In this document: positions 10,299 through 26,878 of the stretch, in pieces
How positions within the stretch are numbered: the first letter of the stretch is position 1
Layout of the letters: every line of letters starts with the position of its first letter
Source: Archangium lipolyticum
Lineage (GTDB): Bacteria; Myxococcota; Myxococcia; Myxococcales; Myxococcaceae
Length of the DNA stretch: 64,000 nucleotides
Reading direction: 5' to 3'
Assembly (NCBI RefSeq): GCF_024623785.1
Contig: NZ_JANKBZ010000010.1
Coordinates: 1-64,000 of the forward strand
Notes under the pieces: model-generated
Told to the model about the DNA's origin: nothing
Database searches by the model: none
The model's input: only the letters and a program-made list of their open reading frames with translations
Made by a program: the position numbers and the translations under genes

Positions 10299-11378
10299 CT
10301 ACGTCGGGTCCGGCTTCGGGGTCTTCGGGCCGCTGGCCGGCAGCTTCGGCTTGGCGATGTAGCTCTTGGGCAGCTCACCGGTGAGCGAGTCCAGGAAGGT
10401 GACGATCGCCTTCGCGTCCTCGTCGGTGATCTGCTTGCCGAACTGGTGCTGGGCCATCAGCTTCACGGCCGTCTGGATCTCCGTGATGGAGCCGTCGTGG
10501 AACCACGGACCCGTCTTCGTCACGTTGCGCAGGGTGGGGACGCGGAAGATCATCCGGTCCGACTCCTGCTTGGTCAGGTCGAAGCGGCCCTGGTCCTTGG
10601 ACTGGAAGGGCACCACGAGACCCAGCTTCTGCAGCGAGCCACCGATGGCCGGGCCGTTGTGGCAGGTCTGGCAGCCCTGCTCGAGGAACTTCTTCAGGCC
10701 GTGCTTCTCCGCCTCGGTGAGCGCCTTCTCGTCACCGGCCAGGTACTTGTCGAAGCGCGAGGGGGTGACGAGCTGGCGCTCGAAGGCGCCAATGGCCTTG
10801 GCCATGTTGTCGTAGGTGACGGCGTCGGCCTGGCCCGGGAAGGCCTTCTGGAAGGCGGTCACGTAGCCCGGGATGGACTTGAGCGTCTCGACGACGCGCG
10901 CCTCGCTGGGCATCGCCATCTCGACGGGGTTGAGGATGGGGCCCTTGGCCTGCTCCTCGAGGTTGGGGGCGCGGCCATCCCAGAACTGCAGGATGTGGCC
11001 ACCGGCGTTGTACACGGTGGGCGAGTTGCGGCCGCCCAGCTGCTTCTTGTGGCCCGGCGAGGTGGGCTTGCCATCCACGCCGTACTTGTTCAGATCGTGG
11101 CAGCTGTTGCAGGACACGTCCTGGTTCTTCGACAGGCGGGTGTCGAAGTACAGCATGCGTCCCAGCTCCACCTTCTCCGGAGTGATGGGGTTCTTGGTGT
11201 CCTCGAAGCGGGCCGGCAGGGCCTTGAACACGCCAAGCAGGGCGCGGTCGATGACGACCTTCTGCTGGGCGGCGGTGGGGGCTGCCGGTGCGGCCGGTTT
11301 GGCCGCCTGAGCAAAGGCCGCGGTGCCAACGGTGGCGGCGGCCAGGATGAGGGGACGAACGAGGCTCTTGAGTTTCAT
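10299..11378 (-). CDS. Di-haem cytochrome c peroxidase/MauG-like protein (copy 1)
   Basis: A 359-residue periplasmic protein with a Sec signal ([25 protein letters not shown]). Two c-type haem sites are visible: CNSCH in the N-terminal domain and CQTCH in the C-terminal domain. Family hallmarks are [49 protein letters not shown] and a late LDSLTGELP. Such proteins reduce hydrogen peroxide with electrons from cytochrome c, or oxidise other substrates (MauG). The start at 11378 is set by the signal peptide. It is closely related to the protein at 13756-14868, down to a shared C-terminal TPKPDPT. Confidence 0.9.
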
Positions 11379-11495
11379 GAGGTCTGCTCTTTCACTGAGC
11401 TCCACGGCCAGAAGACCCGTGAGGGTCGCTGAGTGGGGGGAGGCCGGAAGCCGTCAGGAAATTAGCAGTCTCTGGGGGCCAGGGGGAAACGACAC

Positions 11496-13755: not shown

Positions 13756-14868
13756 ATGTCGCGGAATCGGCTCTTGCTTGGCGTCGGATTGGTGTCCCTG
13801 GGCGCCCTCTCTTCTTCTTGTAGCAAGGAGTCCCCTCCGCCCGCGCAGCCCGCTCCCACAGCGGCGGCCGCCGCTCCCACCCCCGCCGCGCCGCCGGAGC
13901 CGCCGAAGCCGAAGATGAGCCACGAGAAGCTCGTCTCCTTCTTCCGGCTGCCCGCCAAGACGGTCAAGGCGCCGGTGGACACCCCGGAGCAGGTGGCGCT
14001 CGGGCGCATGCTCTTCTTCGAGAAGCGCCTGTCGAAGAACCACGACATCTCGTGCAACAGCTGCCACGACCTGGCCACCTTCGGCGTGGATGGCAAGCCC
14101 ACCTCCGAGGGGCACAGGGGCCAGAAGGGCAGCCGCAACGCGCCCACCGTCTTCCACGCCGCGGGCCATGTCGCCCAGTTCTGGGACGGCCGCGCCGCCA
14201 CGCTGGAGGAGCAGGCCTCGGGCCCGATGATGAACCCGTTGGAGATGGCCATGCCGGGCGAGAAGCACGTGCTGGCGACGCTCAACTCCATACCGGAGTA
14301 CGTGAAGCGCTTCCAGGCGTCCTTCCCTGGCAAGAAGCCGGTGAGCGTGGGCAACGCCGCGCGGGCCATCGCCGCCTTCGAGCGCAAGCTCCTCACCAGC
14401 TCGCGCTTCGACAAGTTCCTGGCCGGTGACGAGAACGCCCTCACCGAGCAGGAGCGGCGCGGGTTGGAGCTCTTCGCCAGCGCGGGCTGCACCACGTGTC
14501 ACAACGGCCCGTCGGTGGGCGGTACCTCCTTCCAGAAGCTGGGCCTCATCGAGGACTTCCCCACCGAGGACAAGGGCCGCTTCGAGGTGACGCAGAACGA
14601 GGAGGACCTGCACAAGTTCCGCGTGCCCACGCTGCGCAACGTGGAGAAGACGGGCCCCTGGTTCCACGACGGCTCCGTCAAGGAGCTGCCCACGGCGGTG
14701 CGCCTCATGGCGAAGCACCAGCTGGGGATGAGCTTCACCGACGCCGAGGTGGATGACATCGTGGCCTTCCTCAAGAGCCTCACCGGCGAGCTGCCCGGTG
14801 ACGACATCCTCTCGGCTCCCGAGCTGCCTCCGAGCACGCGCACCACGCCGAAACCGGATCCGACGTAA
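13756..14868 (+). CDS. Di-haem cytochrome c peroxidase/MauG-like lipoprotein (copy 2)
   Basis: A 370-residue lipoprotein (lipobox SSSC in LVSLGALSSSCSKES), followed by a Pro/Ala-rich linker to about residue 52. Haem sites are CNSCH and CTTCH. The body parallels copy 1 (10299-11378) throughout: [46 protein letters not shown] and the terminal TPKPDPT. Unlike copy 1 it is membrane-tethered by lipid. The ATG directly follows the TAG of the YfiM-like gene, and the small membrane-protein gene at 14910 follows after 41 bases, suggesting a three-gene transcript. Peroxidase activity is the default expectation; a MauG-like oxidation is possible. Confidence 0.9.
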   Translation: MSRNRLLLGVGLVSLGALSSSCSKESPPPAQPAPTAAAAAPTPAAPPEPPKPKMSHEKLVSFFRLPAKTVKAPVDTPEQVALGRMLFFEKRLSKNHDISCNSCHDLATFGVDGKPTSEGHRGQKGSRNAPTVFHAAGHVAQFWDGRAATLEEQASGPMMNPLEMAMPGEKHVLATLNSIPEYVKRFQASFPGKKPVSVGNAARAIAAFERKLLTSSRFDKFLAGDENALTEQERRGLELFASAGCTTCHNGPSVGGTSFQKLGLIEDFPTEDKGRFEVTQNEEDLHKFRVPTLRNVEKTGPWFHDGSVKELPTAVRLMAKHQLGMSFTDAEVDDIVAFLKSLTGELPGDDILSAPELPPSTRTTPKPDPT

Positions 14869-14909: not shown

Positions 14910-15314
14910 ATGAGAATGCTCTTCTACGCGCACTCCGGGTTGCGTTACCTCGTCCTCCTGATGGGGCTGGTCGCCGTCGCCTACTTCGCCTTCGGGCTCG
15001 CCACGAAGCGGCCCGTGGACAAGTCGGTCCGCATCATCGGCTCCAGCTTCGCGGGTCTGCTCGACACGCAGATCCTCCTCGGCATCCTCCTGCTGGGCGC
15101 GGGCTGGCCCTTCTACCCGGCCCTCTGGGGCCACCTGGTGATGATGCTGGCGGCGGCGGGCCTGGCCCACGCGCTGCTGGTGATCAACCGCAAGCGCCCC
15201 AACCCCGGCTACCTGCTGCCGCTCATCGGCGTGGGCGGGGCGCTCGTGCTCGTGCTCGGTGGCATCCTGGCCATCGGCCGGAGCGTGATGGGCACCACCT
15301 CCATCGGGGGTTGA
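14910..15314 (+). CDS. Small four-helix membrane protein
   Basis: A 134-residue integral membrane protein with about four spans: GLRYLVLLMGLVAVAYFAFG, LLDTQILLGILLLGAGWPFY, LVMMLAAAGLAHALLVI and PLIGVGGALVLVLGGIL. The start YAHSGLRYLVLL is shared by short proteins sometimes labelled cytochrome-b-like in other bacteria. His8, His125-type positions in spans 1 and 3 (HSG and GLAHALLV) could ligate a haem, but this is not shown. Its position right after a di-haem peroxidase lipoprotein suggests a partner role in electron delivery (inference). No functional assignment is possible from sequence alone. Confidence 0.65.
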   Translation: MRMLFYAHSGLRYLVLLMGLVAVAYFAFGLATKRPVDKSVRIIGSSFAGLLDTQILLGILLLGAGWPFYPALWGHLVMMLAAAGLAHALLVINRKRPNPGYLLPLIGVGGALVLVLGGILAIGRSVMGTTSIGG

Positions 15315-15755: not shown

Positions 15756-17021
15756 CTAACGAAGGGGCGAGAGCCGCGCGGAATCGTCCCGGAGCCTGCC
15801 CGTTCCGTTCCCCTCCAGCACGGCCCGGGTCACCGGACGCCGCTCGACGAACACCCACAGGCCCGTCCGCCCGGCGGGCTCGGGCGAATAAGCGTGGAAG
15901 CCCTGGGGCATGGGGGGCGGCGCCCAGTCGAACAGCCACGCCGCGTCCTTCACCGACAGGTTGACGCAGCCATGGGTGACCGCGTTGCCGAAGGTGTCGT
16001 GCCAGAAGGCGCCGTGCAGGGCCTGGCCCCGGTGGAAGAAGAGCGAGTGGGGCACCTCCTCGACGACATAGGGGGCGCTCTCGGGGCCGTGCATGGTGTC
16101 GTGCACCACCTTGTGCCAGACGCGGAACAGCCCTTCGCGCGTCGGGGTGGCGGCCTTGCCCGTGGACACGAGCGTCGCCATCACCGGCGTGCCGCCCTCG
16201 TACGCGGTGAGGACCTGCTCCGACACCTCGACGTGCACCCAGCGCTCCCCCGGCTTCACCTGTGATGGGCGCTGGCGGGGGAGGACCAGCCGCACATCCT
16301 GGTGGGGCAGGGCGCCTCCCTCGACGAGCACCCGTCCACCCTTGTCCATTCCCTGCACGGCGAAGCGCTCGTGCTTGTGGGGGGCGAACGGTACTCCTCC
16401 ATCCGGGATGCCCGCGTCACCGGCCATCACGGCCTTCGCGCTCCGGACCACGAAGGCCAGCGGCAGGGTGGGCGAGTGCTCTCCCTCCAAGGCACTGGGC
16501 GTGGCGAGCCGCACGTCGGACACGGAGACGTAGCCACCGGCCAGCCGCTCGAGCCAGCCGCCATCCTGGAGCTCCGGCTCCTCGTGGAAGGCCAACACGT
16601 GCGGCGCCTGCTCACGCTCCACCACCCTGGCGTCGGTCCGGGGCTCCTCGCGCACCACCGCCCCGTTCTTCTTCACCGTCCCATAGACGTAGGGCAGCGC
16701 CACACCCGGAGGCGGCGTGGCCCTCGAGGAGGGATTGAGCTTCAGGTTCGCCAACCGGATGGCGCCGTCCCCGCCCAGCAGGGCCCAGCCGTCTGGTGCG
16801 TCACAGGCGGGCACACAGCCCGTGACCCATAGCTCGTCCTCGCGCACCACCAGCCCCACCACGGGCGACTCGGGGGAGGGCTCCAGGCGGACATAGGCGG
16901 ACTGCGCCAGCACCCAGGCACGGAAGGGCGCCGTGGGAATCGTCTCGCCATCGTCACAAGCCCCCAGTGCTCCCGCGAGCAGCGCGGCGAGCACGCGGAG
17001 CGTCCTCGTTCCACCGGCCAT
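15756..17021 (-). CDS. L,D-transpeptidase (YkuD) lipoprotein
   Basis: A 421-residue lipoprotein with signal MAGGTRTLRVLAALLAGALGAC and lipobox LGAC. Residues about 30-170 contain two SH3-like stretches (AYVRLEPSPESPVVGLV, GAVVREEPRTDARVVE). The YkuD domain follows, from about 270 (WVHVEVSEQVLTAYEGGTPVMATLVSTG), with the catalytic motif HGAFWHDTFGNAVTHGCVNLS containing the active-site Cys. These enzymes cross-link peptidoglycan stems or attach proteins to them. The ATG at 17021 has AAGGAGG eight bases upstream. The open frame upstream to 17735 is spurious. It follows the membrane-protein gene at 17102-17767 by 80 bases. Confidence 0.88.
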   Translation of the reverse strand: MAGGTRTLRVLAALLAGALGACDDGETIPTAPFRAWVLAQSAYVRLEPSPESPVVGLVVREDELWVTGCVPACDAPDGWALLGGDGAIRLANLKLNPSSRATPPPGVALPYVYGTVKKNGAVVREEPRTDARVVEREQAPHVLAFHEEPELQDGGWLERLAGGYVSVSDVRLATPSALEGEHSPTLPLAFVVRSAKAVMAGDAGIPDGGVPFAPHKHERFAVQGMDKGGRVLVEGGALPHQDVRLVLPRQRPSQVKPGERWVHVEVSEQVLTAYEGGTPVMATLVSTGKAATPTREGLFRVWHKVVHDTMHGPESAPYVVEEVPHSLFFHRGQALHGAFWHDTFGNAVTHGCVNLSVKDAAWLFDWAPPPMPQGFHAYSPEPAGRTGLWVFVERRPVTRAVLEGNGTGRLRDDSARLSPLR

Positions 17022-18023: not shown

Positions 18024-18860
18024 ATGGGTACATACGTCCCGAGCCGACGCCAGAGGCGAGCGCTGGCCGTCACTCCCGCCCTGCCGATGCTGGCGTTGCT
18101 CGCCGCCCTGCCCGCGGCGGCGCAGGGGATTCCCGAGGGGGCGAAGCTCTTCTCGGAGCGGTGCGCGAGCTGCCACACGGTGGGCCAGGGAGACCGGGTG
18201 GGCCCGGACCTGATGGGCGTGCTGACACGCCGCGAGGAGTCCTGGGTCACCACCTTCCTGAAGAGCCCGGGCGCGATGATCGACGGTGGCGATCCGGTGG
18301 CCGGCGAGCTCCTGAAGAAGTTCAACGGCATCCGGATGCCGGACCAGCAGCTGTCCGACGACGAGCGGAAGGGCCTGTTCGCGTTCTTTCGTGACTGCAC
18401 CGAGAAGGGCAGCTGTCAGCCGGGAGCCACCGGGCCGAAGCTGGCGTCGGACGCCACGCCCGAGGAGATGGAGCACGGCCGTCAGCTCTTCGAGGGGGAG
18501 GTGGCGCTGGCCAATGGCGGCCCGGCCTGCATCGGCTGCCATGACGTGCGCGGCATCGGCGTGGTGGGTGGCGGGACGCTGGCGCGCGACCTGACCTTCT
18601 CCTTCGCGCGGCTGGGCGAGCGGAAGATGACGCCCGCCCTGAAGGAGATGTCCTTCCCCTTGATGAAGGAGCTCTACGGGAAGGCGCCGCTGACGGACGC
18701 GGAGCAATTCGAGCTCAAGGCATACCTGGCGAACGTCTCGCGAGACGGCACGCCGCCGCGCAAGGACCGGGACTTCTTCTACCTGGGCTTCGTGGGGCTG
18801 GGCGTCGCACTGGGTTTCATCGGCATCGTCCTGGGCGGCCGTGGCCGCGCGAAGGACTGA
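18024..18860 (+). CDS. Membrane-anchored di-haem cytochrome c (NarC-like)
   Basis: A 278-residue periplasmic cytochrome with an N-terminal signal (RALAVTPALPMLALLAALPAAAQG) and a C-terminal anchor (YLGFVGLGVALGFIGIVLGG). Haem sites are CASCH in a first domain and CIGCH in a second domain. The fold order resembles the NarC cytochrome that accompanies NarI in Thermus-type nitrate-reductase operons. Here it opens an operon with a NarI-like subunit and ActA-F. It probably passes electrons between the b-type cytochrome and ACIII or a soluble carrier (inference). GTG 18021 is an alternative start; AGAGGGG lies six to nine bases upstream. The next gene starts 16 bases past its stop. Confidence 0.8.
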   Translation: MGTYVPSRRQRRALAVTPALPMLALLAALPAAAQGIPEGAKLFSERCASCHTVGQGDRVGPDLMGVLTRREESWVTTFLKSPGAMIDGGDPVAGELLKKFNGIRMPDQQLSDDERKGLFAFFRDCTEKGSCQPGATGPKLASDATPEEMEHGRQLFEGEVALANGGPACIGCHDVRGIGVVGGGTLARDLTFSFARLGERKMTPALKEMSFPLMKELYGKAPLTDAEQFELKAYLANVSRDGTPPRKDRDFFYLGFVGLGVALGFIGIVLGGRGRAKD

Positions 18861-18876: not shown

Positions 18877-19536
18877 GTGAGCGACACGTTCCTCTACGAT
18901 TTTCTTCCATATGTGGTGCTGGCCCTCGCCCTCGGCGTGCCGGCGTGGCTGCGCAACCGCGCGCGTCTGTCCTCCTGGGTGATGGGGTGGGTGGAGCGCG
19001 AGGGCACGGGCTCGGCGGCCGTGTCCCTGGTGGTGGGCGCCATCATCATGCTGTTGTGGCACGCGGCCTGTTTCCTCCTGCCACACCCGGTGCAGCTCTT
19101 CATCCGCTCGCCCGCGCGCCTCTTCTTCCTGGAGGTGGTGGGCCTCATCGGCGGGATGATGCTGGCCTGGGGCCTGGTGGCGAGCATCGTCCGCAAGCTG
19201 TCGAGCCGCGAGCCCGGTGCGCGGGTGTGGCTGGCCTTCCAGGTGCTGCTGCTGGCCGAGGTGCTCAACGGCCTCTACATCGCGGTGGCGTACCGCTGGG
19301 CCTCCGCCTGGTACGTGAGCGTGGTGGTGCCGTACCTGCGCTCGCTGGTGACGCTCCAGCCGGACGCGACGCTCATCGCCCAGCTGCCGCTGACCGTGCG
19401 CATGCACCTCTTCGGCGTGCTCGCGCTGCTGCTCGCCTGGCCCCTCGCGCGCTGGCTGGCCTCGACGGGGGCCGCGCCCACTCTGGTGTCCACCCGGGAG
19501 GAGCCCGCCAGCCAGCGCGGGATTGTCACCCCATGA
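18877..19536 (+). CDS. NarI-like b-type cytochrome lacking proximal haem ligands
   Basis: A 219-residue membrane protein with five spans, the size and layout of nitrate-reductase gamma subunit NarI. Hand alignment to E. coli NarI is gapless around the haem regions: H62 matches distal-haem ligand H66 (WHAACFLLPH versus GHFFGMLTPH) and H177 matches H187 (RMHLFG versus RLHLVL). The proximal-haem ligands H56 and H205 correspond to V52 and A195, so only one haem b is expected. The GTG at 18877 has GAGG six bases upstream; an upstream ATG at 18841 would overlap the cytochrome gene. Its stop overlaps the actA start (ATGA). No narGHJ genes are present. Confidence 0.78.
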   Translation: MSDTFLYDFLPYVVLALALGVPAWLRNRARLSSWVMGWVEREGTGSAAVSLVVGAIIMLLWHAACFLLPHPVQLFIRSPARLFFLEVVGLIGGMMLAWGLVASIVRKLSSREPGARVWLAFQVLLLAEVLNGLYIAVAYRWASAWYVSVVVPYLRSLVTLQPDATLIAQLPLTVRMHLFGVLALLLAWPLARWLASTGAAPTLVSTREEPASQRGIVTP

Positions 19537-20159
19537 TCGACCCGACCCGAGCCTCGCTGCTCTCCGGTGTGCTGGCCGCCCTCGCGTTGGGGGGCTGTGA
19601 CACCACGCCGATCAACAACAACCAGAACTACATGCCCGCGCAGCCCATCGCGTTCTCCCACGCGGTGCATGCCGGTCACTACGAGATCGACTGTCAGTAC
19701 TGCCACGTGGGCGCGGAGAAGAGCCGGCACGCCGGCATTCCCCACTCGGGCGTGTGCATGAACTGCCACACCCAGGTGAAGACGGACTCGCCGGAGATCC
19801 AGAAGCTCACCCAGGCGGTGAAGCTGAACAAGCCCATCGAGTGGGTGCGCGTGCACCGGCTGCCGGACCACGCGTACTTCAACCACGCGAGCCACGTCAC
19901 CTCCGGGCTGGAGTGCCAGCAGTGCCACGGCCCGGTGCAGGAGATGGTGCGGCTGGAGCAGGTGGAGCCGATGACCATGGGGTGGTGTCTGGACTGCCAC
20001 CGCAAGACGGAGGAGTCGAAGCTCCAGGCGCCGGTGCCGCCGTTGGCATCCGGTGTGCTGAGGACCTCCGCATCGGGAGTGCCCGTGGCCTCCGCGCCCG
20101 TCACCCCCGCGCCGCGCACCCTGAATCCCCCCACCGACTGCTCCGGCTGCCACCGCTGA
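19533..20159 (+). CDS. actA: Alternative complex III subunit A, pentahaem cytochrome c
   Basis: A 208-residue exported lipoprotein-like protein (MIDPTRASLLSGVLAALALGGCDT, lipobox LGGC). Five c-type haem sites are visible: CQYCH, CMNCH, CQQCH, CLDCH and CSGCH. This count and order match ActA, which carries electrons from the iron-sulphur subunit towards ActE. The motif FSHAVHAGHYEIDCQYCH is typical. The ATG overlaps the stop of the NarI-like gene by four bases. Between haems four and five is a Ser/Ala/Val-rich insert (about 35 residues) not needed for haem binding. Confidence 0.92.
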   Translation: MIDPTRASLLSGVLAALALGGCDTTPINNNQNYMPAQPIAFSHAVHAGHYEIDCQYCHVGAEKSRHAGIPHSGVCMNCHTQVKTDSPEIQKLTQAVKLNKPIEWVRVHRLPDHAYFNHASHVTSGLECQQCHGPVQEMVRLEQVEPMTMGWCLDCHRKTEESKLQAPVPPLASGVLRTSASGVPVASAPVTPAPRTLNPPTDCSGCHR

Positions 20160-20171
20160 GGAACGCGCACC

Positions 20172-23147
20172 ATGTCCGAGACGACACCCAAGTACTGGCA
20201 GAGCCTGGCCGCGCGAGCCGGAGACCCGGCGCTGCTCGAGAAGGCCCGCGACGAGTTCGCCGAGGAGCTCCCCGTGGGCGTGGCGGCCCAGGCGCCGGAT
20301 CAGAGCTCGCGCCGTGACTTCTTCAAGGTGATGGGCCTGAGCGCCGCGGCGGCCATGGTGGCCTGCCAGCGCGCCCCGGTGCAGAAGGCGGTGCCCTTCA
20401 TCGCCAGGCCGGACGAGGTGACCCCGGGCCTCGCCCTCTGGTACGCGTCCACCTGCGGTGCGTGCAGCGCCAACTGCGGCGTCCTGCTGAAGACGCGCGA
20501 TGGCCGCCCCATCAAGGTGGAGGGCAACGAGGATCATCCGGTGTCGCGCGGCGGTGTGTGCGCCACGGGCCAGGCCTCCGTGCTGTCCCTCTATGACGCC
20601 AACCGCTCGCGCTGGCCGTCGGTGGGCGGGACGAAGGCCTCCTGGGGCGACCTGGACAAGGCGGTGACGGAGGGGCTGCGAAAGCTGGTGGGGGAGGGGA
20701 AGCCCATCCGGCTCGTCCTCCCGTGGGTGCTGGGGCCCACCGCCGAGGCCGCCGTGGTGCGCTTCCTGGCCGCCTTCCCCACCGCGCGCACGGTGCGCTT
20801 CGACGCCACGGGGGAACTGGAGACCATCGCCGAGGCCCACCGCCTCACGCATGGCGTGCGCGCGGTGCCGGACTACCGCTTCGACCAGGCGAAGGTCATC
20901 GCCAGCTTCGGCGCGGACTTCCTGGGCACCTGGGTGTCCCCGGTGGCCTTCACCCGCCAGTACACCGAGGCCCGTGACGCGGCCGGCAAGAAGGAGATGT
21001 CGCGGCACTGGCAGCTCGAGCCGTTGATGACGCTGACGGGCGCGAGCGCCGACAAGCGCGTGCCGGTGGCGCCCTCGGACGTGGTGCCCGCGCTGGCGGG
21101 GCTGGTGAGGCGGCTGGCGGAGAAGGCCGGCCGGACCGTGGAGGGACTCGAGAGATTCCTCACGAAGCAGGTGGCCGCCGACGTGCTGGAGGTGCTGGCC
21201 GGCGAGCTGTGGGCCGCGAGGGCGAAGGCCCTGGTGGTGTGCGGGAGCGACGAGCTCGCGGCCCAGGTACTGGCCAACGTGGCCAACGAGCTGCTCGGCA
21301 ACGAGGGCACCACCGTCTCCCTGACGGGGGGCCTCGCGCTGGACGCGGGGGCGATGACCTTCGGCGAGCTGTTCTCCGAGCTGGAGGCGAAGCAGGTGGG
21401 CGCCGTCCTCTTCCACGGCGTCAACCCCGCCTACGCCCACCCGAGGGGCGAGGCGCTGGCGGGCCTGCTGAAGGACGTGGCGCTGACGGTGGCCACGAGC
21501 GACCGGCTCGACGAGACGGCCTCGCTGGTGCGCTTCCACGCGCCGGACCACACCTCGCTGGAGTCCTGGGGGGATGCCGAGCCGCGGCGCGGCGTGCTGA
21601 GCCTGCGCCAGCCGGTGGTGGCTCCACTGCACGACACGCGCGGCGCGGTGGAGTCGCTGCTGAAGTGGGTGGGGGTGGAGCAGTCGCACTACGACTTCCT
21701 GCGGGCCCGCTGGGAGGCGGAGGTCTTCCCGCGCGCGAACGTGGCCACGGGCTTCCAGCCCTTCTGGGACGAGGCGGTGCGCCAGGGCGTGGTGGTGGTG
21801 CTGCCGCCCTCGGCCTCCGAGGCGCCCGCGTTCCGCGCCGAGAGCGTGGCGGCGGCGCTGGCCGGTGCCTCCTCGGCGGAGGGGGAGTACGAGCTGGTTC
21901 TGTATCAAAAGGTGGCCTTGAGGGACGGCGCGCTGGCCAACAATGGCTGGCTGCAGGAGATGCCGGATCCGATCTCCAAGGCGACCTGGGGCAACTACCT
22001 CTGTGTGGCGCCTTCCACCGCGACGAAGCTGGGTATCAGCGACGGGCAGGTGGTGAAGGTGAGCGCCGGGGGGAAGACGCTCGCGGTGCCGGCGCTGGTG
22101 CAGCCGGGCACGCATCCGCGGGCGCTGGGCCTCGCCATGGGTTACGGCCGGACGAAGGTGGGACGTATCGGGAACGAAGTGGGGGAGAACGCCTTCGGCC
22201 TGGCCTCTTTTACGAACGGGAAGGTGCGCCGCACGGCGCCCGGGGTGGGAGTGCAGGTGACGCCCGAGCACCAGCCGCTCGCCCAATCCCAGACACACGC
22301 CTCCATGGAGGGCCGCGCGCTGGTGCGCGAGGCCGAGCTGGCGGCGTTCCTCGCCAACCCGCGCGCGGGCAACGAGGAGGCGGGCGGGCACGGCGGTGGC
22401 CACCCGCTCTCCATCTGGTCCGGCCACGAGTACAAGGGCCACCGCTGGGCCATGGCGGTGGACCTGAGCGCCTGCACGGGCTGCTCGGCGTGCGTGGTGT
22501 CCTGCCAGGCGGAGAACAACATCCCCATCGTGGGCGAGGACGAGGCACGCCGGCAGCGCGAGATGCACTGGATGCGCATCGACCGGTACTACGAGGGCGA
22601 GCCGGACGCGCCGCGCGTGGTGCACCAGCCGATGATGTGCCAGCACTGCGAGAACGCCCCGTGCGAGACGGTGTGCCCGGTGCTCGCCACGGTGCACTCG
22701 ACCGAGGGCCTCAACCAGCAGGTCTACAACCGCTGCGTGGGCACGCGCTACTGCGCCAACAACTGCCCCACGAAGGTCCGCCGGTTCAACTGGTTCGACT
22801 ACAAGCACGACGAGCCCCTCGAGCGCATGGTGCTCAACCCGGACGTGGTGGTGCGCACCCGCGGCGTGATGGAGAAGTGCTCGCTGTGCGTGCAGCGCAT
22901 CCAGGAGGGCAAGGCCTCGGCGAAGCGCGAGGGGCGCGAGGTGCGTGACGGGGAAATCCGCACCGCGTGCCAGCAGAGCTGCCCGGCGCGGGCCATCCAC
23001 TTCGGCGACCTGAATGATCCGAACAGCGACGTGGCGAAGCTGGCGAAGAGCGGGCGCGCCTACCGGCTGCTGGAGGAACTCAACATCGGTCCGGCCGTGA
23101 CGTACCTCACCAAGGTTCGCAACACCGGAGACGGGAGCGCGGAATGA
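20172..23147 (+). CDS. actB: Alternative complex III subunit B (molybdopterin-like plus iron-sulphur fusion)
   Basis: A 991-residue fusion. Residues 47-65 resemble a twin-arginine signal ([17 protein letters not shown]) ending at Cys65, possibly lipidated. Residues about 85-740 form the molybdopterin-oxidoreductase-like domain, with Cys95, Cys98, Cys102 and Cys130 near its start; ACIII members of this family have no bound molybdenum cofactor. From about residue 750 a HybA/NrfC-type ferredoxin domain holds several Cys clusters, such as [24 protein letters not shown] and CSLC, for the clusters that lead electrons to ActA. It is central to quinol oxidation by ACIII. It starts 12 bases after actA, and its stop overlaps the actC start. 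Confidence 0.93.
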
Positions 23148-24631
23148 GCAACCAGCACACATCCTCCCTGCGGGTGCCGCTCGTCGGCGAGGAGCGCACC
23201 CTCGGCCAGCTCACGGGGGAGATTTGCGCCCCCATGGAGCGCAAGCCCACCGGCAAGTGGTGGGTGGCCTTCGCGCTGGCGGTCGCCACGCTCGCGGTGG
23301 GCGTGGGCATGGTCTCCTACGAGGTGGCCACCGGTATCGGCGTGTGGGGCCTCAACAAGACGATCGGCTGGGCCTTCGACATCACCAACTTCGTGTTCTG
23401 GGTGGGGATCGGCCACGCCGGCACGCTCATCTCCGCCATCCTCTTCCTCTTCCGGCAGAAGTGGCGCACGAGCATCAACCGCGCGGCCGAGGCGATGACG
23501 CTCTTCGCGGTCATGTGCGCGGCCATCTTCCCGGTCATCCACATGGGCCGGCCGTGGAACGCCTTCTGGGTGCTGCCGTATCCGAACGACCGCGGCTCGC
23601 TCTGGGTGAACTTCCGCTCGCCGCTGCTGTGGGACGTGTTCGCGATCAGCACGTACTTCACCATCTCGGCGGTGTTCTGGTACTTCGGCCTCATCCCGGA
23701 CCTGGCCACGGTGCGTGACAGGGCGAAGGGGCTGAAGAAGGCCATCTTCAAGGCGCTGTCGTTCGGGTGGAACGGCTCGTCGCGTACCTGGCACCGCTAC
23801 GAGACGGTGTACCTGCTGCTGGCGGGCCTGGCGACGCCGCTGGTGCTCAGCGTGCACACCATCGTGTCGTTCGACTTCGCGACCTCGGTCATCCCCGGCT
23901 GGCACACCACCATCTTCCCGCCGTACTTCGTCGCGGGCGCGGTGTTCAGCGGCTTCGCCATGGTGCTGACGCTGATGATCATCACCCGCACGGTGCTGGG
24001 CTTCGAGCACCTCATCACCATCCGCCACCTGGAGAACATGACGAAGGTCATCATCGTCACGGGTGGCATCGTGTCGCTGGCGTACGGGACGGAGTTCTTC
24101 ATTGCCTGGTACTCGGGCAACCCGTACGAGAAGTTCACGTTCATGAACCGGGCGTTCGGCCCGTACGCGTGGGCGTACTGGACGATGGTGACGTGCAACG
24201 TGGTGTCGCCGCACCTGTTCTGGTTCAAGAAGGTGCGCACGTCTCCGGCGGCCATCTTCGTGCTGTCGCTGGTCATCAACGTGGGCATGTGGTTCGAGCG
24301 CTTCGTCATCATCGTGACGTCGCTGCACCGGGACTTCCTGCCCTCGAGCTGGTCCATGTACACGCCCACGGTGGTGGAGGTGGGCACGTTCGTGGGCACC
24401 TTCGGCCTCTTCTTCACGCTGTTCCTGCTGTTCACCCGGGTGCTGCCCATCATCTCCATCGGCGAGGTGAAGAGTGTGGCGGCGTTCGCGCGTGGCACAC
24501 ATGCCCCGGCGCATGCCAGCCACCCGGCCCACGGCCCCGAGACGCCGCACGAGCATCCGGCCGAGGCGCCGGAGCCCCTGCCCACCCCGGCCCTGGCGGC
24601 GGTGGCGGTGAGAAAGGACATGCCGGTATGA
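23144..24631 (+). CDS. actC: Alternative complex III subunit C (NrfD-like quinol-binding subunit)
   Basis: A 495-residue polytopic protein of the NrfD/PsrC family with about ten spans. It contains quinol-site-like segments near [20 protein letters not shown] and [14 protein letters not shown], and [13 protein letters not shown] in the second half. It anchors the complex and oxidises menaquinol or ubiquinol on the periplasmic side. The C-terminal 45 residues are a His/Pro-rich tail ([20 protein letters not shown]) not found in the membrane core. The ATG overlaps the actB stop (ATGA), and its stop overlaps the actD ATG in the same way. Confidence 0.93.
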
Positions 24632-25146
24632 GCCCGTCCCAATCCGTCCTGCTCAGCTACTTCGACAGCGAGGAGCACGTCCTCGACGCCACCCGGGCCG
24701 TCCGCGAGGCGGGCTACGCGGTGCATGACGTCTACACGCCCTACGCCATCCACGGAATGGACGAGGCGATGGGGCTGAAGTCCTCGCGCCTGACCTGGGT
24801 GTGCTTCGGGGCGGGGCTGTTGGGCACCACGTCGGCCCTGGCGCTCCAGTACTACACGTCGGTGGTGAGCTGGCCGCTCAACGTGGGAGGCAAGCCCTTC
24901 AACTCCTTCCCGGCCTTCATCCCGGTGGCCTTCGAGCTCACCGTGTTGTTCGCGGGCCTCATCACCGTGGCGGCCTTCCTGTTGCGCACGAAGACCTTCC
25001 CCGGGAGCAAGCGCGAGGCGCTGCCCCGGGTGACGGATGACCGCTTCGTGCTGGCGCTGCGCGCGGACGAGTCGGACGCGAAGCTGCGGCAGATGCTCGA
25101 GCGTCACGGTGCGCTCGAGGTGGAGCAGATGGAGGTGGCGTCGTGA
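24628..25146 (+). CDS. actD: Alternative complex III subunit D (DUF3341)
   Basis: A 172-residue protein of the DUF3341 family. Residues about 1-55 are a small cytoplasmic domain ([29 protein letters not shown]), followed by two spans ([39 protein letters not shown]). The segment [18 protein letters not shown] forms the C-terminal soluble part. It holds ActC and ActF together. ATG 24628 overlaps the actC stop by four bases, and its own stop overlaps the actE GTG. The upstream open frame to 23767 is a shadow of actC. Confidence 0.92.
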
Positions 25147-25715
25147 AGCGGCTCCTCGCCGGAATCGGTGTGCTCGCCGCGGCCCTTCAGGTGGGCTGTG
25201 AGCGGGACGTATCCCAGCCCAACCTCGAGTACGCGCCGGACATGTATGGCTCCGTGCCGTATGACAGCTACGCGCCCAACCCCAACACGCGCGATGGCAA
25301 GACGCTGATGGCGCCCGCGCCAGGCAGCATTCCCCGGGGCTACTCGCCGCTGCACTACGGCCCGAGCCCCGAGGAGGCCACGCGCGCCTCCACGGAGCTG
25401 AAGAATCCCTTCGAGGCCTCGGAGCCGGTGCTGACGCGCGGCAAGGTGGCCTTCAACCGCTATTGCTCGCACTGCCACGGCACGGGCGGGCTCGGGGATG
25501 GCCTGGTGGCCGCGCGCTTCCCCCGGCCTCCGTCGCTGCTGGCCGAGCACGCCCTCGGCCTGGCCGACGGGCAGCTCTTCCACATCATCACCCACGGACA
25601 GGGATTGATGCCGGCCCACGGCTCGCAGGTGGCCCAGGAGGATCGCTGGAAGATCGTCCACTACATCCGGTCGCTGCAGACGCCGACGCGGACCGCGCGG
25701 AAGGACACGCCATGA
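25143..25715 (+). CDS. actE: Alternative complex III subunit E, mono-haem cytochrome c lipoprotein
   Basis: A 190-residue lipoprotein with lipobox VGC (LAAALQVGCERDVSQ). Its single haem site is CSHCH at about residue 108, with the axial Met probably in HGQGLMPAHGSQV. In ACIII it receives electrons from ActA and delivers them to the terminal oxidase. The start is GTG 25143, overlapping the actD stop. Its end overlaps the actF ATG, so all six act genes form an unbroken translationally coupled series. Confidence 0.9.
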   Translation: MKRLLAGIGVLAAALQVGCERDVSQPNLEYAPDMYGSVPYDSYAPNPNTRDGKTLMAPAPGSIPRGYSPLHYGPSPEEATRASTELKNPFEASEPVLTRGKVAFNRYCSHCHGTGGLGDGLVAARFPRPPSLLAEHALGLADGQLFHIITHGQGLMPAHGSQVAQEDRWKIVHYIRSLQTPTRTARKDTP

Positions 25716-26878
25716 GCTCCTCGGGAATCGTCGTCAGCCCCAACCTCCGGCGGGCCAGCATGGCGCTGGCGGTGCTCGGACTGCTCGGTCTGGCCGCGGG
25801 CCTGGCCCTGGAGCCGACCCGTGGCTTCTCCAGCCTGCTGCTCAACGGCTTCTTCTTCCTGACGCTCGCGCTGGGGGGGGCGGTGTTCCTGGCGCTCAAC
25901 TCGGTGGCGAACGCGGGCTGGTACACCGTCTTCAAGCGCATCCCCGAGGCCTTCGCCTCCTACGTGCCGGTGGGCGCGGCGAGCCTGCTGGTGGTGCTCG
26001 CGGGCCTGCCCTCGCTGTACCTGTGGGCGCGTCCCGGGGTGATGGAGACGGACCACCTGCTGCACAAGAAGGTGGCCTTCCTCAACGCGCCGGGCTTCGC
26101 CATCCGCATGGCGGTGATGCTGGCGCTCTGGGCCTTCCTCACGTGGAGGCTGCGGAAGAACTCACTGGAGCAGGACGCGGAGCCCTCGGCCGAGCCGACG
26201 AAGCGCAACGTGGCCACCTCGGCCATCTTCCTGGTGCTGTTCGCGCTGTCGTTCTGCCTGGCGAGCTTCGACTGGCTGATGAGCCTGGAGCCGCACTGGT
26301 TCAGCACCATCTACGGGCTGTACAACGTGGCGGGGCTGCTGGAGTCGAGCCTGGCGGCGATCACCGTGGCGGTGGTGCTGATGAAGCGCTCGGGGCTGAT
26401 GAAGGAGATCAACACCAGCCACCTGCACGACCTGGGGAAGCTGATGTTCGGCTTCGCCACGCTGTGGGCCTACCTGTGGTTCTCGCAATTCCTGCTCATC
26501 TGGTACGCGAACATCCCGGAGGAGACGGTCTACTTCATCAACAGGATGCACGGGGGCTGGGGGGGGCCGTTCTACCTGAACGTGGTGCTCAACTGGGCGC
26601 TGCCGTTCGTGCTGCTGCTGCCGAAGCCGGCCAAGCGCAACGCGACGCACCTGTGCCTGGTGGCGGGCATCATGCTGGCGGGGCGGTGGTTGGATCTGCA
26701 CCTGATGATCGCGCCGTCGAACATGCCCGAGTACGGGGGCATCAACGTCTGGGATGTGGCGGGGCTGGTGGGGCTGGGTGCGCTGTTCGTGCTGGCGGTG
26801 ACGCGGACGGTGGTGTCGGTGCCGCTGATTTCCCGAAACGATCCGTACCTGGTGGAGAGCCTGCATCACCATACGTGA
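25712..26878 (+). CDS. actF: Alternative complex III subunit F (NrfD-like)
   Basis: A 388-residue polytopic membrane protein, the second NrfD-type subunit. Spans include LLLNGFFFLTLALGGAVFLAL, TSAIFLVLFALSFCLASFDW, LWAYLWFSQFLLIWYANIP and VVLNWALPFVLLLP. Family landmarks are the first-half DWLMSLEPHWFSTIYG and PAKRNATHLCLVAG. It pairs with ActC through ActD. The ATG at 25712 overlaps the actE stop. The gene ends the ACIII operon; a REP-like element begins three bases after its stop, followed by a terminator. Confidence 0.92.
   Translation: MSSSGIVVSPNLRRASMALAVLGLLGLAAGLALEPTRGFSSLLLNGFFFLTLALGGAVFLALNSVANAGWYTVFKRIPEAFASYVPVGAASLLVVLAGLPSLYLWARPGVMETDHLLHKKVAFLNAPGFAIRMAVMLALWAFLTWRLRKNSLEQDAEPSAEPTKRNVATSAIFLVLFALSFCLASFDWLMSLEPHWFSTIYGLYNVAGLLESSLAAITVAVVLMKRSGLMKEINTSHLHDLGKLMFGFATLWAYLWFSQFLLIWYANIPEETVYFINRMHGGWGGPFYLNVVLNWALPFVLLLPKPAKRNATHLCLVAGIMLAGRWLDLHLMIAPSNMPEYGGINVWDVAGLVGLGALFVLAVTRTVVSVPLISRNDPYLVESLHHHT

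Follow-up and report, generated by a model that had tools for sequence, protein, structure and literature searches.

A NarI-like cytochrome b keeping only its distal haem ligands in a myxobacterial alternative complex III operon: a probable remnant of a Thermus-type nitrate reductase

In the window, i.e. the whole 64,000-nucleotide stretch of Archangium lipolyticum DNA analysed here, a NarI-like membrane protein is encoded within an operon for alternative complex III (ACIII), and no narG, narH or narJ gene is found around it. The locus raises the question of where such a protein comes from, and what it may do next to ACIII. The gene, hereafter narI' (18877-19536, forward strand), has a GTG start and encodes a membrane protein of 219 amino acids. 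Its product matches PF02665 with an E value of 1.3e-19 and 71.1 bits, against a Pfam cut-off of 22.9, which places it in the NarI sequence family; with TIGR00351, the NCBI equivalog model for narI, it scores 35.4 bits, under the cut-off of 105.55.

Haem ligand positions were set by alignment to residues 7-221 of E. coli NarI (PDB 1q16, chain C). H62 (codon 19060-19062) and H177 (codon 19405-19407) fall on the distal ligands H66 and H187, and V52 (codon 19030-19032) and A195 (codon 19459-19461) replace the proximal ligands H56 and H205, in agreement with the assignment made in the initial annotation. Two of the four histidines that hold the two b haems of NarI are thus present, and the product is a cytochrome b of the NarI family in which only the distal pair of ligands remains. 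No gap occurs at 56-66 or at 187-205, so that slippage of the alignment is excluded, as had also been claimed. When compared with the PDB, a profile of 19 family members matched the E. coli NarI chains and nothing else, and the window protein as a lone query had no match; the predicted structure (window NarI' plus the Archangium violaceum homologue) had a mean pLDDT of 54.9, too low for haem geometry.

The operon runs on the forward strand from a narC-like dihaem cytochrome c gene (18024-18860; PF00034, E 2.8e-12; two CxxCH motifs) through narI' to actA-actB-actC-actD-actE-actF, ending at 26878, with 4-base overlaps at five junctions. The narC-like product, whose start codon is uncertain, has a hydrophobic segment at its C terminus, interpreted as a membrane anchor. 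A Pfam/NCBIfam scan identified actA (19533-20159), for a multihaem cytochrome c with five CxxCH motifs counted by eye, and actB (20172-23147), for a molybdopterin-oxidoreductase-like plus Fe-S protein; these are followed by actC, of the NrfD family (23144-24631; PF03916, E 1.6e-23), actD (24628-25146; PF11821, E 7.8e-57), actE, for a cytochrome c (25143-25715; PF13442, E 8.4e-15), and actF (25712-26878), for a second NrfD-like membrane protein. The last has no match in Pfam or NCBIfam, and owes its name to its location, to being conserved alongside the rest of the act set and to a weak similarity to actC (E 1e-7); with actF assigned by place and conservation, the series actA to actF is complete and in order.

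Upstream, on the same strand, lie a dihaem cytochrome c peroxidase gene (13756-14868; PF03150, E 9.9e-57) and a gene for a small membrane protein of 134 amino acids with no Pfam match (14910-15314), conserved upstream of narC. A second peroxidase gene is found farther upstream, on the reverse strand (10299-11405). An L,D-transpeptidase gene (YkuD; 15756-16850, reverse strand) stands between the small membrane protein gene and narC, in the window only among the 36 loci described below.

Homologues were surveyed across the Myxococcota. Within the order Myxococcales, matches were found in 50 of 145 genomes, 36 with a protein of the window type (collectively NarI', n=36) and 14 with a two-haem NarI; a contig scan with the window protein alone retrieved a single locus, in Archangium violaceum (L032). 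The order narC cytochrome-narI'-actA is the same at every one of the 36 loci (that of the window plus L062-L096), so that membership of the ACIII operon, already claimed for the window gene, holds throughout. The operon runs on through actF in 33 of them, the sequence at L063, L077 and L093 stopping earlier. Of the 36 loci, 28 have the peroxidase gene and 29 the small membrane protein gene upstream of narC and in its orientation; both are absent at L066, L075, L076, L077, L080, L083 and L090, and the peroxidase gene alone at L064.

The locus is linked to one type of ACIII. At least 41 genomes of the order encode an ActC that shares 75% identity or more with that of the window, other places among the matches listed reaching 66% at most. 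These 41 genomes comprise 36 with NarI', two (G084, G089) with a full nar set and three (G125-G127) with narC and a divergent NarI relative. The source genome (12.6 Mb, 75 contigs) also carries two complete-looking act clusters of other ACIII types, at G000:C2:282149-283459 (L097) and G000:C16:178108-179412 (L151), whose ActC proteins are 62% and 53% identical to that of the window.

The ligand pattern is almost uniform. At E. coli positions 56, 66, 187 and 205, histidine is found in 0, 35, 36 and 0 of the 36 NarI', against 19 of 19 at all four positions in two-haem NarI (17 proteins from the phylum, plus those of Thermus and E. coli). This count excludes PF02665 matches that are partial or belong to other subfamilies (for example L053 and L058), as well as the additional copies in G015 and G016. 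The absence of both proximal ligands, which the initial annotation had suggested checking in act-linked homologues, is therefore not a mixture of His and non-His residues, and a search for other histidines at the proximal site, which revealed none within 4 columns on either side of the two positions 56 and 205 across the 36 proteins, leads to rejection of that possibility. Position 65, beside the distal ligand, is bulky in NarI' and Gly or Ala in most two-haem NarI, so that quinol binding may differ.

The single exception at position 66 is the protein of G113 (L031), where one base (CAC to CTC) turns the residue corresponding to His62 into Leu, by either a real change or a sequencing error; the dN/dS of this gene is ordinary. 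The divergent NarI-like proteins of G125-G127 (L146, L147, L148), encoded between narC and actA and kept outside the count of 36, have retained His at 66, but carry Cys at 187 and lack His at both 56 and 205. They were detected by a profile of the 55 sequences of the ligand table, run against those three alone (E 8e-12 to 2.7e-10, 27.6-32.6 bits), and none of their genomes is among the 70 of 195 with a PF02665 match. Their sequences may point either to ligand loss having gone one step further or to ligation by His and Cys.

The persistence of the gene with a distal ligand gone, in G113 and G125-G127, speaks for a structural role, whether additional or older, which makes a serious rival of the following reading, unlikely as we judge it: NarI' would mainly be a membrane anchor or assembly partner for NarC on or near ACIII, NarC would be fed by the ACIII haem wire, and the b haem would be a stabilising leftover or a minor branch. 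A role of this kind would have precedents, since NarG of Thermus requires NarC and NarI in order to mature and to attach to the membrane, according to excerpts of PMC7694296 and PMC10609526, and since known ACIII, in the portion of PMC5928083 consulted, carries its cofactors in periplasmic subunits and accepts extra subunits, such as ActG and ActH. It does not readily account for the retention of the distal histidines in 35 and 36 of the 36 proteins, whose overall identity between genera is only about 36-49%.

Could NarI' still serve a nitrate reductase encoded elsewhere? The initial annotation had noted the lack of narGHJ nearby, and this lack extends to the whole source genome, in which the only PF02665 place is that of the window and the best narG match has an E value of 1.4e-6, below the model cut-off, leaving NarI' with no NarGH partner by these searches. 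Over the order, 13 of 145 genomes score above the cut-off of the narG model, and not one of the 36 with NarI' is among them. Since the NarH-facing motifs of the protein are also gone (see below), this explanation is rejected for the source genome, and its probability is considered negligible.

The origin of the protein is illuminated by clusters in which nar and act genes are joined. In G154 (L101/L103) and G084 (L104/L105), an unbroken series narC-narGHJI-narK-narK-actABCDEF is found, on one strand and in the same order, with a four-His NarI and a whole nitrate reductase. In G089, narC-narGHJI-narK and actB-actF are carried by two contigs, the junction being outside the sequence. The actB gene of G154 (L103, 11722-14429) and the narG gene of G089 (L106, 3215-6798) each match in two nearby pieces, which may reflect a frameshift or an assembly error. 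The peroxidase and small membrane protein genes are not found upstream in G084 (6.8 kb covered), in G154 (only 0.6 kb covered) or in G125-G127.

The dihaem cytochrome adjoining narI', whose kinship to NarC the initial annotation had missed, provides both a likely electron partner and a clue to the origin of NarI'. It is 49% identical to NarC of G154 (E 3.5e-86) and 32% identical to NarC of Thermus (E under 1e-6), the two having also been aligned with each other; G154 NarC is in turn 35% identical to Thermus NarC over 214 residues (E 1e-16). The two CxxCH motifs, the identity and the tree mark the window cytochrome as a relative of the Thermus-type NarC. On the Thermus plasmid the order is the same: cytochrome, nitrate reductase alpha subunit, narH, a TorD-family chaperone, narI and two transporters. 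On the grounds of the G154 and G084 clusters, the kinship of NarC to Thermus and the Thermus gene order, the window operon is best read, from its sequence, as a nar-act cluster minus narGHJ and narKK.

Phylogenetic trees are in line with this reading. NarI' form one clade (support 95/94). NarC of 11 NarI' clusters form another (96/93), which joins NarC of G154, G084 and G089 at 82/98. ActC of nine NarI' clusters, together with those of G154 and G084, form a clade (100/99) apart from 21 other myxobacterial ACIII, a second ACIII of the source genome being among these 21, and the concatenation of the six act proteins gives 100/100 for 13 rows. The rows were chosen, with nine NarI' clusters in the ActC tree and 11 in the NarC tree and in the act concatenation. 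Within the act clade, the act data set G123 and G008 apart from the others (one-clade test, p-AU 0.041), whereas the NarI and NarC trees keep them together; one loss of narGHJ and two losses are both possible. Overall, the origin of NarI' from a nar-act cluster is strongly supported.

In order to establish which side of NarI had been eroded, residues common to at least 75% of two-haem NarI were selected, and the share of them kept in NarI' was averaged over stretches. This share is about 6% for the 10 positions between 39 and 60 and about 1% for the 9 from 203 onward; it rises to about 83% for the 9 at 66-91 and to 95% for the 10 at 149-187. In E. coli, the first two stretches are those that we take to face NarH and the cytoplasm, and the other two the periplasm. 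The cut is not a clean one: R111, R112 and R202, on the cytoplasmic side, are kept, and positions 69 and 93 (P-side or mid-membrane), 122 and 126 are lost. NarI' may hence be regarded as a natural dissection of NarI, in which the cytoplasmic partner has gone, together with the haem ligands and surface serving it, and the periplasmic ligands and NarC have stayed.

Loss of two of the four ligands, fast divergence and the further loss in G125-G127 would also be expected of a decaying relic without function. Identity across genera is about 36-49% for NarI', as compared with about 83-86% for ActC, narI' evolving faster than its neighbours. However, the dN/dS of narI', 0.10-0.36 in 10 pairs, indicates purifying selection and makes a decaying pseudogene unlikely; the gene is moreover present in all 36 loci with the operon kept, and the distal histidines are conserved. 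A functionless relic is accordingly held to be very improbable.

The reading that we favour, and regard as probable, is that NarI' is left over from a nitrate reductase of the Thermus type, whose operon had been joined to that of ACIII, and now forms with NarC a branch from quinol through haem bD to NarC. A Thermus-type nar operon would have been joined to the ACIII operon, giving narC-narGHJI-narKK-actABCDEF; narGHJ and narKK would have been lost in the NarI' lineage, with narC, narI and act retained; haem bP would then have disappeared together with the NarH-facing loop and the C-terminal tail, and the bD ligands (H62/H177) would have been retained with the periplasmic half around the quinol site. 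Haem bP of NarI passes electrons to NarH, and would be dispensable for a path from quinol to bD, NarC and the periplasm. The available text of PMC10609526 locates bP at the NarGH-NarI interface and reports it absent in an E. coli narJ mutant, so that the two NarI haems are separable.

In present-day cells, NarI' would oxidise menaquinol at its quinol site on the periplasmic side; oxidation of quinol by NarI on the P side is described in part of PMC6303296. From bD the electron would then reach the dihaem NarC and, beyond it, acceptors in the periplasm: the ACIII cytochromes, a soluble cytochrome c and perhaps the neighbouring cytochrome c peroxidase, whose frequent presence upstream makes peroxide a possible sink. 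As far as PMC7694296 could be consulted, NarC of Thermus is an interaction partner of NarI; maturation of NarG requires it, and respiration of nitrite and NO depends on it under repression of complex III. The outcome would be a short electroneutral quinol:cytochrome c branch, beside ACIII or docked on it, and such a periplasm-side route through NarI' and NarC is considered the most likely. For NarI', a bound haem, oxidation of quinol, the direction of electron flow and contact with ACIII are predictions drawn from its sequence; NarC and NarI' are tied to each other and to ACIII by gene linkage, in 36 of 36 loci, and are putative partners on that basis.

The opposite direction may also be conceived, with electrons passing from ACIII or a periplasmic cytochrome c to NarC, bD and the quinone, in a return or balancing branch. 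The Thermus-like cluster of Nitrobacter is described, in the same excerpt of PMC7694296, as oxidising, with electrons leaving through NarI and NarC, so that the NarC-NarI link is not tied to one use. Transfer from a high-potential cytochrome c to menaquinone would, however, be uphill and devoid of a driving force, no transmembrane haem pair apparently being left, and this direction is deemed improbable.

The branch running from quinol to NarC agrees in part with the initial annotation, which had proposed a subunit repurposed as a one-haem interface: repurposing is borne out by the G154/G084 clusters and the trees, and the one-haem interface is weakened by the loss of a distal ligand in G113 and in the three divergent homologues. 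More specifically, and tentatively, NarC-NarI' might constitute a minimal quinol:cytochrome c oxidoreductase of two subunits and three haems (one b, two c) on the periplasmic side, derived from a stripped nitrate reductase and joined to ACIII, which would thereby gain another entry point for quinol, equipped with a b haem, the peroxidase encoded nearby being one outlet. Whether NarC-NarI passes quinol electrons to periplasmic cytochromes without NarGH can be tested in culturable myxobacteria. The joint operon ties ACIII to nitrate respiration, and NarI' is a candidate b-haem addition to ACIII, whose forms described in the consulted part of PMC5928083 hold all cofactors in periplasmic subunits; no description of a joint nar-act operon or of a b-haem addition to ACIII was found in searches of the open-licence part of PubMed Central. 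Nitrospina NxrC, which appears in the accessible text of PMC3578206 with a "bd-like oxidase as alternative complex III", was considered and set aside as a gamma subunit of a different kind.

Four known systems are closest to the window operon. DsrMKJOP combines in one set a NarI-family cytochrome b, a periplasmic cytochrome c, an NrfD-type subunit and an Fe-S protein, and the likeness of the window operon to it lies in the layout; no DsrK-type cytoplasmic Fe-S partner was found among the operon proteins scanned with Pfam and NCBIfam. ACIII (ActA-F) is represented in the window by all six genes in order, with two genes added in front, and ACIII as described in the available portion of PMC5928083 has no membrane subunit with a b haem. 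With Thermus NarCGHI (operon narCGHJIKT), the window shares a membrane-bound dihaem cytochrome c and a NarI-family cytochrome b, in the same order at both ends of the nar set; unlike it, it lacks NarG, NarH, NarJ and the transporters, and NarI' lacks both proximal ligands. The G154 and G084 nar-act clusters differ from the window in their whole nitrate reductase and four-His NarI, and have narC and act genes of the same types, in the same order.
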